A stretch of DNA of 40,841 nucleotides from Eubacteriales bacterium (GTDB lineage: Bacteria > Bacillota > Clostridia > Saccharofermentanales > UBA5734), in contig JAQUDJ010000005.1 of the NCBI GenBank assembly GCA_028685755.1, positions 1 to 40,841 of the forward strand. The letters run 5' to 3'. This document shows positions 14,376 to 19,390 of the stretch, in pieces. Made by a program: the position numbers and the translations under genes. The notes under the pieces are model-generated. The model was not told where the DNA came from. It worked only from the letters and a program-made list of their open reading frames with translations, and did no database searches. Each line of letters begins with the position of its first letter. Position 1 is the stretch's first letter.

Positions 14376-15632
14376 GTGAAAACCGAGTCATTTTTACAAA
14401 AAACCAATTTTCTTGCTGGCCATCAGCCAGAAGAACTTCTCGCACAATATGGCAGTCCACTTTATGTGTACAATGAGCAGATCTTTCGGGATCGTTGCCA
14501 TGATATGCAGAGTTTAGTTGATTATGAACGTTTTACGGCAAACTACTCGATAAAAGCAAATAGCAATATCAACCTCCTTGCGATCGCCCGGGAAGAAGGC
14601 ATGTATGCCGACGCCATGTCACCCGGCGAAATATTATTTTTAGAACAAGCTGGTTATTCACCCGAGCAAATATTTTTTGTCCCGAATAATGTCTCACGTG
14701 AAGAATTACAATTTGCTATTGATCACAACGTATTAACGAGTCTAGATTCGATTTCTCAACTTGATCTATTCGGACAATTAAATCCAGGTGGTCGTGTCGC
14801 GATAAGAATCAATCCAGGTGTTGGTGCCGGACACCACGAAAAAGTGGTAACAGGTGGGAAGAAGACTAAATTTGGTATCAGCATGGACCAAATGGACCAA
14901 GTCCAAACCACATTAAAGCGTTATCAACTCCACTTGGTTGGCGTCAATCAGCATATCGGTTCGTTGTTTATGGAACCGCAACCCTATTTAGAAGCAGCCC
15001 GACATTTTTTATCTTTAGCTGAACAATTTTCAGAACTTGAATTGGTCGATTTTGGCGGTGGATTTGGCATCCCTTATCACAAATTAGAAGGCCAAGAACG
15101 ACTCGACTTGCAGACGTTAAAACACGAATTAACAGCACTTATTCGTGGTTTTGTCGCCAAATACAAGCGACCGGTGCTTTTCAAAAGTGAGCCGGGCCGT
15201 TACGTCGTTGCTGAAAGTGGAGTCTTGTTGGGGACGGTTCACGCTGTCAAACAAAATGATGCCTCAACCTTTGTTGGAACTGATCTTGGCTTTAATGTGT
15301 TAGCACGGCCGATGATGTATGATTCATGGCACGACATTGAAGTCTTTCATCAGGGGGAACTGCAAGCAACAGATGGCCCGTTAAAAACCGTATCAGTTGT
15401 TGGTAACATCTGTGAAAGTGGCGACATTATCGCAAAACATCGTGAATTGCCCCCTATTGTCGAAGGTGACGTCCTTGCCGTGCTCGATGCTGGTGCTTAT
15501 GGGTATGCTATGAGTTCGACATATAACAACCGGTTGCGCCCCGCTGAGATCCTCATCCAAAAGGACGGTCAAACTCGTCTGATCCGACGCCGGGAAGTGT
15601 TTGAAGACTTATTCCGGACCTTCGAATTTTAA
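14376..15632 (+). CDS. lysA: Diaminopimelate decarboxylase
   Basis: 418 residues, GTG start with TAGGAGG 7-9 nt upstream. Fold-III PLP enzyme: PLP lysine K60 in NYSIKANSN, HIGSLFMEPQPYLEAA, glycine loop LVDFGGGFGIPYH, phosphate and substrate site EPGRYVVAESG, catalytic CESGDIIA, and the C-terminal GAYGYAMSSTYNNR. The last two blocks match LysA rather than the polyamine decarboxylases. It makes L-lysine from meso-diaminopimelate. The dCMP deaminase gene starts 55 nt downstream. Family length is normal. Confidence 0.93.
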   Translation: MKTESFLQKTNFLAGHQPEELLAQYGSPLYVYNEQIFRDRCHDMQSLVDYERFTANYSIKANSNINLLAIAREEGMYADAMSPGEILFLEQAGYSPEQIFFVPNNVSREELQFAIDHNVLTSLDSISQLDLFGQLNPGGRVAIRINPGVGAGHHEKVVTGGKKTKFGISMDQMDQVQTTLKRYQLHLVGVNQHIGSLFMEPQPYLEAARHFLSLAEQFSELELVDFGGGFGIPYHKLEGQERLDLQTLKHELTALIRGFVAKYKRPVLFKSEPGRYVVAESGVLLGTVHAVKQNDASTFVGTDLGFNVLARPMMYDSWHDIEVFHQGELQATDGPLKTVSVVGNICESGDIIAKHRELPPIVEGDVLAVLDAGAYGYAMSSTYNNRLRPAEILIQKDGQTRLIRRREVFEDLFRTFEF

Positions 15633-15687
15633 TGATTGTCCAAGCCCGTGTCGATTGTTAAGATTATTGAAAAAAGGGGAGATAGCA

Positions 15688-16185
15688 ATGAGCAAACGGA
15701 AAGACTATATTAGCTGGGACGAATATTTTATGGGTATCGCTTTGCTTTCTGCTGAACGCAGTAAAGATCCTAGTACCCAGGTCGGAGCCTGTATTGTTAG
15801 CCCACAAAATCGAATTGTTTCTGTCGGTTACAATGGAATGCCCGTCGGAATCAGTGATGACGATTTCCCCTGGGCGCGCGAAGGCGACCCACTCGATACC
15901 AAGTATCCATACGTTTGCCATGCTGAACTTAATGCCATTCTCAACAATGTTGGCACGCGGCTCGATGAGGCTAAAATTTATGTTCCACTGTTCCCCTGCA
16001 ATGAATGCTGCAAAGCCATCATCCAATCCGGGATTCGCGAAGTAGTCTTTATCTCAGACAAGTACAAAGAGACGGATTCCGTCAAAGCCTCAAAACGCAT
16101 GATGGATCGTGCAGGTGTCGTGTATCGCCGCTTGCAAACGCCGCTCAAATCACTTTCAATATCCTATCGAGAAGAAGACATCTAG
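15688..16185 (+). CDS. dCMP deaminase (cytidine/deoxycytidylate deaminase family)
   Basis: 165 residues from ATG 15688 with AAGGGGAG upstream; a longer frame opening at 15601 inside lysA is not needed. Zinc-dependent deaminase motifs: CHAELNAILN (His-Ala-Glu, catalytic Glu) and PLFPCNECCKAII (PCxxC). The start MSKRKDYISWDEYFM and DPSTQVGACIVSP are typical of dCMP deaminase/ComEB. It converts dCMP to dUMP for thymidylate synthesis. A terminator follows at 16277. Confidence 0.93.
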   Translation: MSKRKDYISWDEYFMGIALLSAERSKDPSTQVGACIVSPQNRIVSVGYNGMPVGISDDDFPWAREGDPLDTKYPYVCHAELNAILNNVGTRLDEAKIYVPLFPCNECCKAIIQSGIREVVFISDKYKETDSVKASKRMMDRAGVVYRRLQTPLKSLSISYREEDI

Positions 16186-16276
16186 CCACAAATCGCCCCA
16201 TCACTGTCTCAGCCCCAATCAGTGATATAAATATCATCTAATCTATCAAATAATAGACAGAATTAATGCACAAAAG

Positions 16277-16300
16277 AACCGGCCTTCGAGCCGGTTTTTT
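16277..16300 (+). terminator. Rho-independent terminator after dCMP deaminase gene
   Basis: Stem AACCGGC / GCCGGTT (16277-16283 with 16290-16296), 6-nt loop, run of T at 16295-16300. A clean intrinsic terminator that isolates the SOS-type promoter downstream. Confidence 0.88.
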
Positions 16301-16392
16301 GATGGCGCGTTGTCATCTCGCCGTGCGATCTTTAGGTCAACAAGGTCGATTTTCGTCGAATTAAATTTATTGTCCATAAATTATCACAAAAC

Positions 16393-16406
16393 CGAACAAT
16401 TGTTTG
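16393..16406. promoter_or_regulatory. LexA (SOS) box 1
   Basis: CGAACAATTGTTTG, matching the Gram-positive LexA/DinR consensus CGAAC-N4-GTTYG on all fixed positions. It ends 7 bp upstream of the -35 hexamer at 16414. Binding by LexA is inferred. Confidence 0.85.
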
Positions 16407-16413
16407 AAAATGA

Positions 16414-16442
16414 TTGACATTATATGTTGAGGGATCTATTAT
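16414..16442 (+). promoter_or_regulatory. Strong sigma-70-type promoter between two LexA boxes
   Basis: TTGACA at 16414-16419 and TATTAT at 16437-16442 with an ideal 17-bp spacer. Expected start of transcription is near 16449, right at LexA box 2. A near-consensus promoter clamped by two operators is the layout of a tightly repressed, damage-inducible gene. Confidence 0.85.
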
Positions 16443-16451
16443 TAAAGAAAC

Positions 16452-16465
16452 CGAACAAATGTTTG
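16452..16465. promoter_or_regulatory. LexA (SOS) box 2
   Basis: CGAACAAATGTTTG, again CGAAC-N4-GTTYG, 59 bp from box 1 and just after the predicted transcription start. It differs from box 1 only in the central four bases. Confidence 0.85.
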
Positions 16466-16490
16466 CTCATCGGAATAGGAGGCTATTGAG

Positions 16491-16766
16491 ATGCTTATGA
16501 ATGGATTTTTAGTTTTGATGCTGTTAGTAGTGGTAGGATTTACCGCCTATATAATAGAAAACAATCACCAGGCAGAGCTAGAAGCGCGTATGGAGCTGCT
16601 TCGCCTCATTCGCATGCATAATCGTCAGCAACTCATTCCACCGCAAGCGATGTATTCGCAGACCCAAGCACCCCGACAAGCAGTTGAATCGAATGGATTT
16701 TTTATGATTCAAAACCAACTGTCTGGAGAAGAAGTCATCGACATCACATATTCACAAGTAGCCTAG
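16491..16766 (+). CDS. Small SOS-regulated single-pass membrane protein; candidate division inhibitor
   Basis: 91 residues, ATG 8 nt after AGGAGG. One N-terminal transmembrane helix (about residues 4-22, FLVLMLLVVVGFTAYII). A charged helical stretch follows (residues 24-45, rich in E, R, L, M), then a Gln/Pro-rich linker and a short acidic tail ending EEVIDITYSQVA. No LysM or other known domain is seen, and I do not recognise a family. The two LexA boxes and the shape recall YneA, DivS, ChiZ and SidA, unrelated small membrane proteins that delay division during SOS. This function is inferred from regulation and topology only. Genes on both sides are unrelated and insulated by terminators. Confidence 0.75.
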   Translation: MLMNGFLVLMLLVVVGFTAYIIENNHQAELEARMELLRLIRMHNRQQLIPPQAMYSQTQAPRQAVESNGFFMIQNQLSGEEVIDITYSQVA

Positions 16767-16837
16767 TTTTAATCTGATTGGCAATTGGGTTATCGAGATT
16801 GATTTGCTAACTCACATTCACTTTAATCGAAACGCAA

Positions 16838-16874
16838 AAAAGAACTGCCCCATATCTAGGACAGTTCTTTTATT
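16838..16874. terminator. Bidirectional terminator
   Basis: Stem AAAGAACTG / CAGTTCTTT (16839-16847 with 16862-16870), extended by a CC/GG pair step, about 8-14-nt loop. Plus strand continues TTTTATTCTTTT. Minus strand continues into six T. It ends the SOS gene on the plus strand and the proposed RNA gene on the minus strand. Confidence 0.8.
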
Positions 16875-17147
16875 CTTTTGAACTTTGCCGCAACCACTTC
16901 TGACCAATCTTTGCTTGTATTACAAATACAAGATTAAAATCAAGCCAATATGAAGTTGTTGAACTGAACTGGATCTTCTAGAGTTAAAGCGATAAAAGTC
17001 TCCTTTCGCTCAATCCCTATGTGGGTAAGGCCGATATGACTTCGAATAGACATTTCCCAACTTGGTAGAACGAGACTAGATGAGATGGACTAGGAAAGCA
17101 TGTGCGAATTGTCAATCGGTGCAGGGGTTGCGGCAACCCGTGTTGTT
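16875..17147 (-). ncRNA. Candidate structured non-coding RNA, family unassigned
   Basis: No gene fits here. The ends are complementary over 11 bp: 16885-16895 (TTGCCGCAACC) with 17126-17136. A further ~10 bp (16901-16910 with 17114-17123) pairs with one bulge, giving a long closing stem over ~250 nt. Inside are a perfect 8-bp hairpin (16914-16921 / 16925-16932) and a hairpin at 16989-17009 whose loop reads GAGA, a GNRA tetraloop, on the minus strand. A minus-strand TATAAT at 17154-17159 and the terminator at 16838-16874 frame it. The size and closed-end shape recall 6S or raiA-type RNAs, but I could not match conserved sequences of 6S, tmRNA, SRP or RNase P. Strand choice is probable, not certain. 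Confidence 0.5.
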
Positions 17148-17153
17148 ACTATT

Positions 17154-17159
17154 ATTATA
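17154..17159 (-). promoter_or_regulatory. Putative -10 element for the minus-strand RNA
   Basis: TATAAT on the minus strand, about 20 nt before the proposed 5' arm of the closing stem. The -35 region (17177-17182, TATTTG) is poor. The stretch 17160-17225 is otherwise very AT-rich and holds no gene. Confidence 0.4.
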
Positions 17160-17225
17160 CTCCTATCAATATTAAACAAATATTACAAAAGTGTGAAACT
17201 TTAAAATTAATTCAAATTTCAATTA

Positions 17226-17801
17226 TCAAGCAGATTCGCCAGCTAAACCGATTGTCGTCGCAACGGATCGCATGGCTAATATGCATGAATCAAGAACTTG
17301 ATCGAGTGACCAACCCAGTCGGACTGCACCTTGCTCAATAATTTTTCGATCAACACCGCTTGCAAAGCTTGGCGTTTTAAATTTCTTTTGGAGAGATTTC
17401 AACTCTAAGTCCATCACACTGCGAGATGGTCTCATTAAAGCTACGGCTGTGATCAAGCCTGTCAATTCATCCATGGTATAAAGAACCTTTTCAAGATCTG
17501 ACATAGGTTCCACATTGGATACAAGACCAAATCCATGTGATTGAACAGCACGAATTATTTCATCCGAATAACCTTCAGAACGGAGTATTTCAGCTGCTTT
17601 GACACAATGCTGTTCAGGGTATTTCTCATAATCGATGTCATGCAATAAACCTACAATGCCCCAAATATCGGGATCTGCCTGATCAAAATGAGTTGCGAAA
17701 TATCGCATCACACCTTCGACTGCTAGTGCATGCTTTTGCAAACTATCGCTTGAGTTATATTTTTTAAAGAGATCCCAAGCTTGATCGCGTTGAGGTGTCA
17801 T
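17226..17801 (-). CDS. HD-domain phosphohydrolase
   Basis: 191 residues from ATG 17801, which has AGTAGG 7 nt upstream; a TTG at 17819 would add six residues but lacks a ribosome site. HD-domain signature: HALAVEGVMRYFA (first His), GLLHDIDYEKYPEQH (HD pair and a following His), VQSHGF and a later MDELTGL Asp. This HDIG-like group in Clostridia is a metal-dependent phosphohydrolase of unknown substrate, often a nucleotide. It is a single gene, divergent from purF with ~185 bp between; it shares no obvious operon. Confidence 0.85.
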   Translation of the reverse strand: MTPQRDQAWDLFKKYNSSDSLQKHALAVEGVMRYFATHFDQADPDIWGIVGLLHDIDYEKYPEQHCVKAAEILRSEGYSDEIIRAVQSHGFGLVSNVEPMSDLEKVLYTMDELTGLITAVALMRPSRSVMDLELKSLQKKFKTPSFASGVDRKIIEQGAVRLGWSLDQVLDSCILAMRSVATTIGLAGESA

Positions 17802-17880
17802 GATGCAACCTACTTTCAAAATTATTTACGCTGTCCTTATTTAACCATCGTAAATTTGCCTTGTCTACGTTGGCTTGTGA

Positions 17881-17910
17881 TTGACAACTGTGTCTTGTCT
17901 AGGCGATACT
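17881..17910 (+). promoter_or_regulatory. Promoter of purF
   Basis: TTGACA at 17881-17886 and GATACT at 17905-17910, 18-bp spacer. Predicted start near 17917 leaves a ~70-nt leader. Confidence 0.7.
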
Positions 17911-17924
17911 TTCACTGTTAAGGC

Positions 17925-17981
17925 AGAGGGTGGATTCCGACTGACCGGGCACCTCTTAAAGCGCCAAATAGGCGGAGGAGG
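17925..17981 (+). promoter_or_regulatory. purF leader with two hairpins next to the ribosome site
   Basis: First hairpin: AGAGG-g-TG (17925-17932) pairs with CACCTCT (17950-17956), enclosing a CCG/CGG mini-stem. Second: CGCC AAATA GGCG (17962-17974), directly before the GAGGAGG ribosome site. The CCGAC...CCGGGCACC segment loosely recalls the 3' half of ZTP riboswitches, but the 5' half of that aptamer is not evident. Could regulate purF at initiation; unproven. Confidence 0.35.
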
Positions 17982-17986
17982 CAACC

Positions 17987-19390
17987 TTGATACACGAAGA
18001 ATGTGGCGTGTTTGGCATATTTGGTCCCGAAGGGACTGAAGCTGCCACTGCTACTTATTATGGATTATTTTCTTTACAACACCGTGGCCAAGAAAGCTGC
18101 GGAATTGCAGTGAACCATCAGGGCGATGTCCATGTATACAAAGACATGGGACTTGTTTCTGAAGTCTTTACTCAATCAAATTTAGACGCATTGGTAGGAA
18201 AAGCTGCGATTGGTCATGTCCGTTATTCAACGACCGGCCAAAGTATTCGCGAAAATGCGCAACCTCTCGTAACACGCTACAGTAAAGGGACATTAGCCTT
18301 AGCACATAACGGCAATTTGTCGAACACAAACCAACTCCGTGCCCAATTAGAAGAGCAAGGTGCCATTTTTCAAACTACCATCGATTCAGAGGTTATTGCC
18401 TATTTGATCGCTCGTTATCGCTCTCAGACCGACAGCGTAGAAGAAGCAGTAAGTTTGGCAATGGAACATCTAGAGGGTGCGTATTGTTTGCTTGTACTCA
18501 GTCGCGGTAAGCTCATTGCAGCGCGAGATCCGCTTGGGTTTCGCCCGCTATGCATGGGTCAACTCGATGACGCGATTGTCTTTGCTAGCGAAAGTTGCGC
18601 TTTAGATACCGTCGGAGCGACGTTCATACGTGATATCGAACCTGGTGAGATCGTCGTCGTCGATCGAGATGGCATACGTTCGTTGCGCACACAATGTCAA
18701 GGCCGTCGCCATCACTGCATTTTTGAATATATCTATTTTGCCCGATCAGACAGTCAGCTCGATGGCGTGAGTGTTTACGAAGCTCGCTTGCAAGCCGGTC
18801 GTTTATTAGCTGAGCAATACCCAGTTGACGCTGATATTGTTTTTGGCGTCCCGGATTCTGGATTAGATGCTGCCATGGGATATAGCCGAGCATCTGGCAT
18901 CCCGCTTGTTCGTGGCTTTGTCAAAAACAATTATATTGGCCGTACGTTCATCAAACCATCACAAGTCCAGCGGGAAAACGCCGTTAGGATCAAATTAAAT
19001 CCAGTTCAAAGTAGTGTAAAGGGCAAACGGGTAGTCATGGTTGATGATTCAATTGTTCGTGGAACCACCAGTGCAAGGATTGTTCAGCAGCTAAAACTAG
19101 CAGGCGCAACAGAAGTCCACGTCCGCATTAGTGCGCCGCCCTTTATGTGGCCGTGTTATTTTGGGACAGATATTCCTTCGACTGATGAATTAACCGCACG
19201 AAAAAATACACTTGATGAAATAAGGCAAATGATCGGCGCTGATTCGTTAGGTTTTTTAAAAGTTGAAAGTCTCGGTGAGATGCTTGGGGATAGCAAACAC
19301 ACGTATTGCGATGCCTGTTTTTCAGGGCAATATCCGACACTCGACCCAGAAGCACAAGATGGCAAGGAATATGCCATGCAGGCACATTAA
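17987..19390 (+). CDS. purF: Amidophosphoribosyltransferase
   Basis: 467 residues, TTG start preceded by GAGGAGG; no ATG fits, since the catalytic cysteine lies at residue 6 (MIHEECGVFG) after a short propeptide. The N-terminal Ntn glutaminase domain has GHVRYSTTG and AHNGNLSN. The C-terminal PRT domain has the PRPP loop VVMVDDSIVRGTTS. Four cysteines for the Bacillus-type 4Fe-4S cluster are present: HHCIF, WPCYFG and YCDACF. It makes 5-phosphoribosylamine, the first committed step of purine synthesis. It stands alone, not in a pur operon, with its own promoter and leader. Confidence 0.95.
   Translation: MIHEECGVFGIFGPEGTEAATATYYGLFSLQHRGQESCGIAVNHQGDVHVYKDMGLVSEVFTQSNLDALVGKAAIGHVRYSTTGQSIRENAQPLVTRYSKGTLALAHNGNLSNTNQLRAQLEEQGAIFQTTIDSEVIAYLIARYRSQTDSVEEAVSLAMEHLEGAYCLLVLSRGKLIAARDPLGFRPLCMGQLDDAIVFASESCALDTVGATFIRDIEPGEIVVVDRDGIRSLRTQCQGRRHHCIFEYIYFARSDSQLDGVSVYEARLQAGRLLAEQYPVDADIVFGVPDSGLDAAMGYSRASGIPLVRGFVKNNYIGRTFIKPSQVQRENAVRIKLNPVQSSVKGKRVVMVDDSIVRGTTSARIVQQLKLAGATEVHVRISAPPFMWPCYFGTDIPSTDELTARKNTLDEIRQMIGADSLGFLKVESLGEMLGDSKHTYCDACFSGQYPTLDPEAQDGKEYAMQAH

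Follow-up and report, generated by a model that had tools for sequence, protein, structure and literature searches.

Within the window, i.e. the whole stretch of 40,841 nt that was analysed, a small gene with a promoter flanked by two LexA boxes encodes a 91-aa membrane protein of no recognised kind. This raises the question whether the gene belongs to the SOS response and, if so, what its product does there. A first reading made from the sequence only (the sequence-only reading) had proposed LexA control and, with more reserve, a function in the inhibition of cell division.

The promoter and the SOS regulon of the genome

The boxes, the promoter and the ORF were located exactly as that reading had claimed; their positions are given in Table 1. 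The promoter of the 91-aa ORF agrees with the consensus at 11 of 12 positions and has a spacer of 17 bp between its two elements. Box 1 and the -35 element are separated by 7 bp, the -10 element and box 2 by 9 bp. Both boxes had been called perfect-type, which holds for box 2 (0 mismatches) but is slightly generous for box 1 (1 mismatch compared to CGAACRNRYGTTYG). At least one box was found in 0.3% of the dinucleotide shuffles of the 120-nt region upstream of the window ORF, and two boxes together in 0 of 1000 such shuffles. Since terminator-like hairpins flank the gene on both sides, it appears to form its own transcription unit.

Table 1. Positions of the features in and around the gene of the 91-aa protein (window coordinates).
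Feature	Position	Strand	Remarks
ComEB-like (dCMP-type) deaminase gene	15688-16185	+	conserved 5' neighbour; TIGR02571 ComEB, E 2.8e-24, below model cut-off; synteny
Terminator-like hairpin after deaminase gene	16277-16296	+	GC-rich stem (called on - strand), then T run on + strand
LexA box 1	16393-16406	+	CGAACAATTGTTTG; just 5' of -35
-35 element	16414-16419	+	TTGACA; promoter call
-10 element	16437-16442	+	TATTAT
LexA box 2	16452-16465	+	CGAACAAATGTTTG; spans predicted transcription start
Ribosome-binding site	16477-16482	+	AGGAGG, 8 nt 5' of ATG; read from sequence
91-aa membrane protein ORF	16491-16766	+	predicted LexA-controlled
N-terminal membrane helix	16500-16556	+	aa 4-22; hydropathy, AlphaFold
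Charged continuation of membrane helix	16557-16631	+	aa 23-47; AlphaFold; QAEL.A..L
C-terminal -QVA	16755-16763	+	candidate degron
Terminator-like hairpin 3' of 91-aa gene	16838-16871		apparently shared with conserved - strand RNA

Recognition of the Gram-positive box type by LexA is established for B. subtilis. The CGAAC-N4-GTTYG boxes that overlap the window promoter are of the same type as those of the genome's own lexA and recA genes. The lexA promoter even has the same two-box layout, with CGAACATAAGTTTG directly adjoining the -35 element and TGAACATGTGTTTG close to the start, while recA is preceded by CGAACGAAAGTTCG and dinB by a box of that type as well. The identities of lexA, recA and dinB were confirmed by NCBIfam, with dinB matching the DNA polymerase IV models. 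The 14-mer box motif occurs 11 times in the genome (2.04 Mb) compared to 12 times for the reversed control, and as this count is not above chance, the significance of the boxes rests on their placement and conservation. Three genome-wide box matches (L007, L010, L012) were set aside, as no recognisable gene lies behind them.

Members of the family and their regulatory footprint

A search with the single sequence gave two weak orthologues within the genus. A three-sequence profile recovered the complete set of five in the genus and added two other genera; with nine sequences in the profile, the search extended to five genera of the first taxonomic family and two genomes of the second. A synteny scan 3' of the deaminase gene across the order added one member in the first (G009) and five in the second taxonomic family (G029, G055, G056, G058, G060). 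The protein family thus obtained comprises 22 members from two taxonomic families of the order, including 5/5 genomes of the window's genus. A class-wide search gave good scores for only the three known members; five further weak matches (E 6e-4 to 0.008) were left out of the member count, and three candidates (L036-L038) were dropped as long unrelated proteins. For a phage origin, tblastn against phages gave no match.

Most family genes lie directly downstream of the ComEB-like deaminase gene. In one genome (G018) both genes are present apart from each other on one contig, and in another (G019) no deaminase gene was found. The third and fourth taxonomic families and several genera of the second showed no equivalent gene behind the deaminase.

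The sequence-only reading had suggested looking for LexA boxes in front of homologues, and all 22 members have them. At least one LexA-type box is located within 120 nt 5' of the start in 22/22 members (0.30 expected from dinucleotide shuffles), and at least two boxes in 17/22 (0.002 expected). In most members one box precedes TTGAC and another follows the -10 region. Because protein profile or synteny, and not the boxes, identified the members, this footprint is independent evidence for LexA control. With boxes flanking the promoter in orthologues across genera and with lexA, recA and dinB sharing the box type, we strongly infer from the sequences that the 91-aa gene is controlled by LexA, as had been proposed.

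A variant was observed in the second taxonomic family (L073, L074, L075, L077, L079), where the upstream box is often CGAACAAAGTTTTG or CGAACATAGTTTTC. Here the two half-sites are spaced by 3 bases instead of 4, an arrangement conserved in five genomes.

Anatomy of the protein

NG86 dN/dS values between related members range from 0.17 to 0.49, which means purifying selection and marks the ORF family as a real, constrained protein; YN00 dN/dS reached 1.0 for one pair. The members are 66-198 aa long. Scans against Pfam, NCBIfam and PHROG gave only chance-level matches, none of them to a LysM domain in the 91-aa protein, so that the earlier description as unrecognised and free of LysM is supported. 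AlphaFold, on 13 sequences, predicts a single helix (residues 2-47, pLDDT mostly >90) followed by a disordered tail, and Foldseek found no neighbour for this helix in the PDB. The membrane helix begins at residue 1-6 across the members, and the motif QAEL.A..L is invariant in the three-sequence genus alignment. The tails vary widely in sequence and length and hardly align.

The very end of the protein is conserved. Among the 21 complete members (G020 was left out because its protein runs off the contig) 19 terminate in alanine, as -VA, -AA, -CA or -IA, a count that overstates the independent support since the members are related; the two exceptions end in -KAG. The tmRNA tag of this genome reads ANNTQLVAA. 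Judged by these sequences, the natural reading of the conserved alanine is a degron, although this is not proven. It would resemble the ssrA tag, which here ends in -LVAA, and the degrons of LexA N-fragments, but unlike the ssrA tag the candidate degron is encoded in the gene itself.

In none of the 22 members is the membrane helix preceded by Lys or Arg, and each has 1-7 of these residues in the 25 positions after it. Several tails are strongly basic; the window's genus has a net acidic tail and gives a weak topology signal. Since the positive charges are absent before the helix and present after it, this pattern mildly favours an N-out/C-in topology. The C-terminal parts of YneA and SosA are extracellular (PMC13396833, PMC6851548), and for SosA this was shown experimentally (PMC6851548). 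The sequence-only reading had suggested a topology shared with known SOS division inhibitors (YneA, DivS, ChiZ, SidA). One N-terminal membrane helix is also present in YneA, but a common orientation with YneA and SosA is doubtful, if only weakly so for the window's genus.

Comparison to known SOS proteins

As a small single-pass membrane protein under predicted LexA control, the new protein matches the general build of SOS division inhibitors. YneA of Bacillus subtilis is likewise small and LexA-controlled, has a single membrane helix at its N-terminus and the same Gram-positive box type. The new family differs in having neither LysM nor an NCBIfam match and in its location, the gene being on contig C19 and lexA on C13; it was therefore not assigned to the YneA family. 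Its tail may also be inside, whereas that of YneA is outside. SosA from Staphylococcus is a LexA-controlled small membrane protein without LysM, too, with a helix extending past the membrane and a C-terminus linked to turnover. Membership in the SosA family was rejected because the new gene is not beside lexA and its products measure 66-198 aa compared to about 77 aa for SosA; most of them also end in alanine. SulA, whose domain is a cytoplasmic FtsZ inhibitor, was discarded as well, as there is no Pfam or NCBIfam SulA match and a membrane helix is present. SidA/DidA (Caulobacter), ChiZ (Mycobacterium) and DivS (Corynebacterium) are damage-induced division inhibitors which share little sequence among themselves. 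They belong to other lineages, and no family match was obtained here. No published description of it was found in the literature searched. The functional kind is already known; the family is absent from the libraries searched.

The only LysM protein of the genome (468 aa) is encoded elsewhere and is not YneA, nor did any of the 17 lexA neighbourhoods that could be resolved (out of 20) show a LysM protein next to lexA. The usual slot of the division inhibitor thus appears to be empty. Small membrane proteins without shared sequence occupy this slot in B. subtilis, S. aureus, M. tuberculosis and Caulobacter (PMC13396833, PMC6851548).

A probable function in delaying division

As unrelated small damage-controlled membrane proteins fill the slot elsewhere and no YneA is found here, a delay of division is the best-supported guess, and we give it about an even chance. 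The full explanation, an SOS-induced, short-lived, single-pass membrane protein most likely delaying division during DNA repair, we put only just above even. Without damage, both boxes would be occupied by LexA dimers, hiding the -35 region as well as the transcription start. RecA filaments would trigger the self-cleavage of LexA, the strong promoter would fire, and the protein would insert by its N-terminal helix. Its helical stalk and tail probably touch a cytoplasmic ring protein or a division component in the membrane, for instance the FtsW/FtsI/FtsL complex. Once the DNA is repaired LexA would return, and a protease reading the C-terminal alanine would probably remove the protein: with the tail inside ClpXP could read it, with the tail outside the S41 (CtpA-type) protease which the genome encodes, just as SosA and YneA are handled by CtpA. 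Both inhibitors are known to be removed by proteases (PMC13396833, PMC6851548). Division as the target, proteolysis and topology are in this scheme all inferred.

Several observations speak against the division role. The neighbour is a gene of nucleotide metabolism and not a division gene, and many genomes of the order have no detectable member. The predicted topology may be opposite to that of YneA and SosA. Given the wide variation of the tails, a specific contact to the divisome is not evident from conservation.

A more specific form of the division-delay explanation, which we consider unlikely, would make these proteins new SOS division inhibitors of inverted topology, N-out with a cytoplasmic tail, that carry their own tmRNA-tag-like C-terminal degron; the arrest would then be timed by ClpXP and not by the external proteases which clear YneA and SosA. 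The conserved terminal alanine makes such a built-in timing degron directly testable. More generally, SOS division arrest seems to have arisen again and again from small membrane proteins that are unrelated to one another, and a coherent, undescribed family is added here from an order of anaerobic Gram-positive bacteria in which no YneA was seen. LexA boxes combined with synteny provide a footprint recipe for fast-evolving inhibitors that are missed by sequence search.

The same role could also be filled by a conserved membrane protein encoded divergently from lexA (L006:935-1399, - strand), which is shared by a large part of the order (further copies in L111, L113, L114, L116, L117, L119-L121, L123 and L126-L128). 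A YRLKGYTT-like motif precedes the membrane helix in most copies; the protein of the window genome has no NCBIfam match. It may be SOS-linked too.

Other explanations

It is rather improbable that the protein assists repair or nucleotide supply as an accessory factor anchored in the membrane, acting there with the neighbouring deaminase or with DinB/RuvABC. The conserved place beside the ComEB-like deaminase gene would fit, as would the dinB gene directly 3' of the family gene in one genome and ruvC/ruvA in the same place in another genus. However, a terminator-like hairpin and its own promoter part the gene from the deaminase, no LexA box was found before the deaminase gene in the window, and the deaminase occurs in many genomes without the family gene.

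Still less do we expect a TisB-like SOS membrane toxin, which would lower the membrane potential and lead damaged cells into dormancy without any block of the divisome. SOS control of a small protein with a hydrophobic N-terminal membrane helix is common to both, and two boxes suggest tight repression. TisB-type toxins are, however, very short peptides with an antisense RNA antitoxin, whereas the present proteins have long hydrophilic, charged tails, no known antisense antitoxin or other Rfam RNA was found in 15600-18100, and the conserved - strand RNA converges on the gene's terminator region without overlapping the ORF. The protein might also regulate a membrane protease or envelope stress in the SOS response, or locally transmit another damage output, in either case without division arrest, but this is to be expected just as little; a rapidly changing tail with a conserved end would suit such a role, yet there is no specific evidence for it and no known domain. 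That the boxes are there by chance or serve another gene, and that the ORF is not a real gene, is hardly credible in spite of the genome-wide box count, given the boxes of all members, the dN/dS values and a conserved start, ribosome-binding site and synteny.

Further observations

The intergenic element at 16850-17140 on the - strand is conserved in 5/5 genomes of the genus. It folds into a long closed stem, in which GUUGCCGCAACCCC pairs with GGUUGCGGCAA; TATAAT precedes it, and there is a terminator hairpin on the - strand. Nothing in Rfam matched it above the gathering score, and changes on both sides of the stem are seen in only 4/74 pairs. Its sequence suggests a structured RNA that has so far gone unrecognised, perhaps one of the 6S-like type.

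Two other genes with boxes were noticed. In genus g9 (L028, L018) a box-like GAACGATTGTTT lies upstream of ruvC, directly 3' of the family gene, which suggests SOS control of ruvC/ruvA in this genus. A radical-SAM protein matching TIGR03916 (putative DNA modification/repair; L011:1547-2830) is preceded by the palindromic LexA box CGAACAAACGTTCG at 1501-1514, which suggests that this gene is under SOS control as well.
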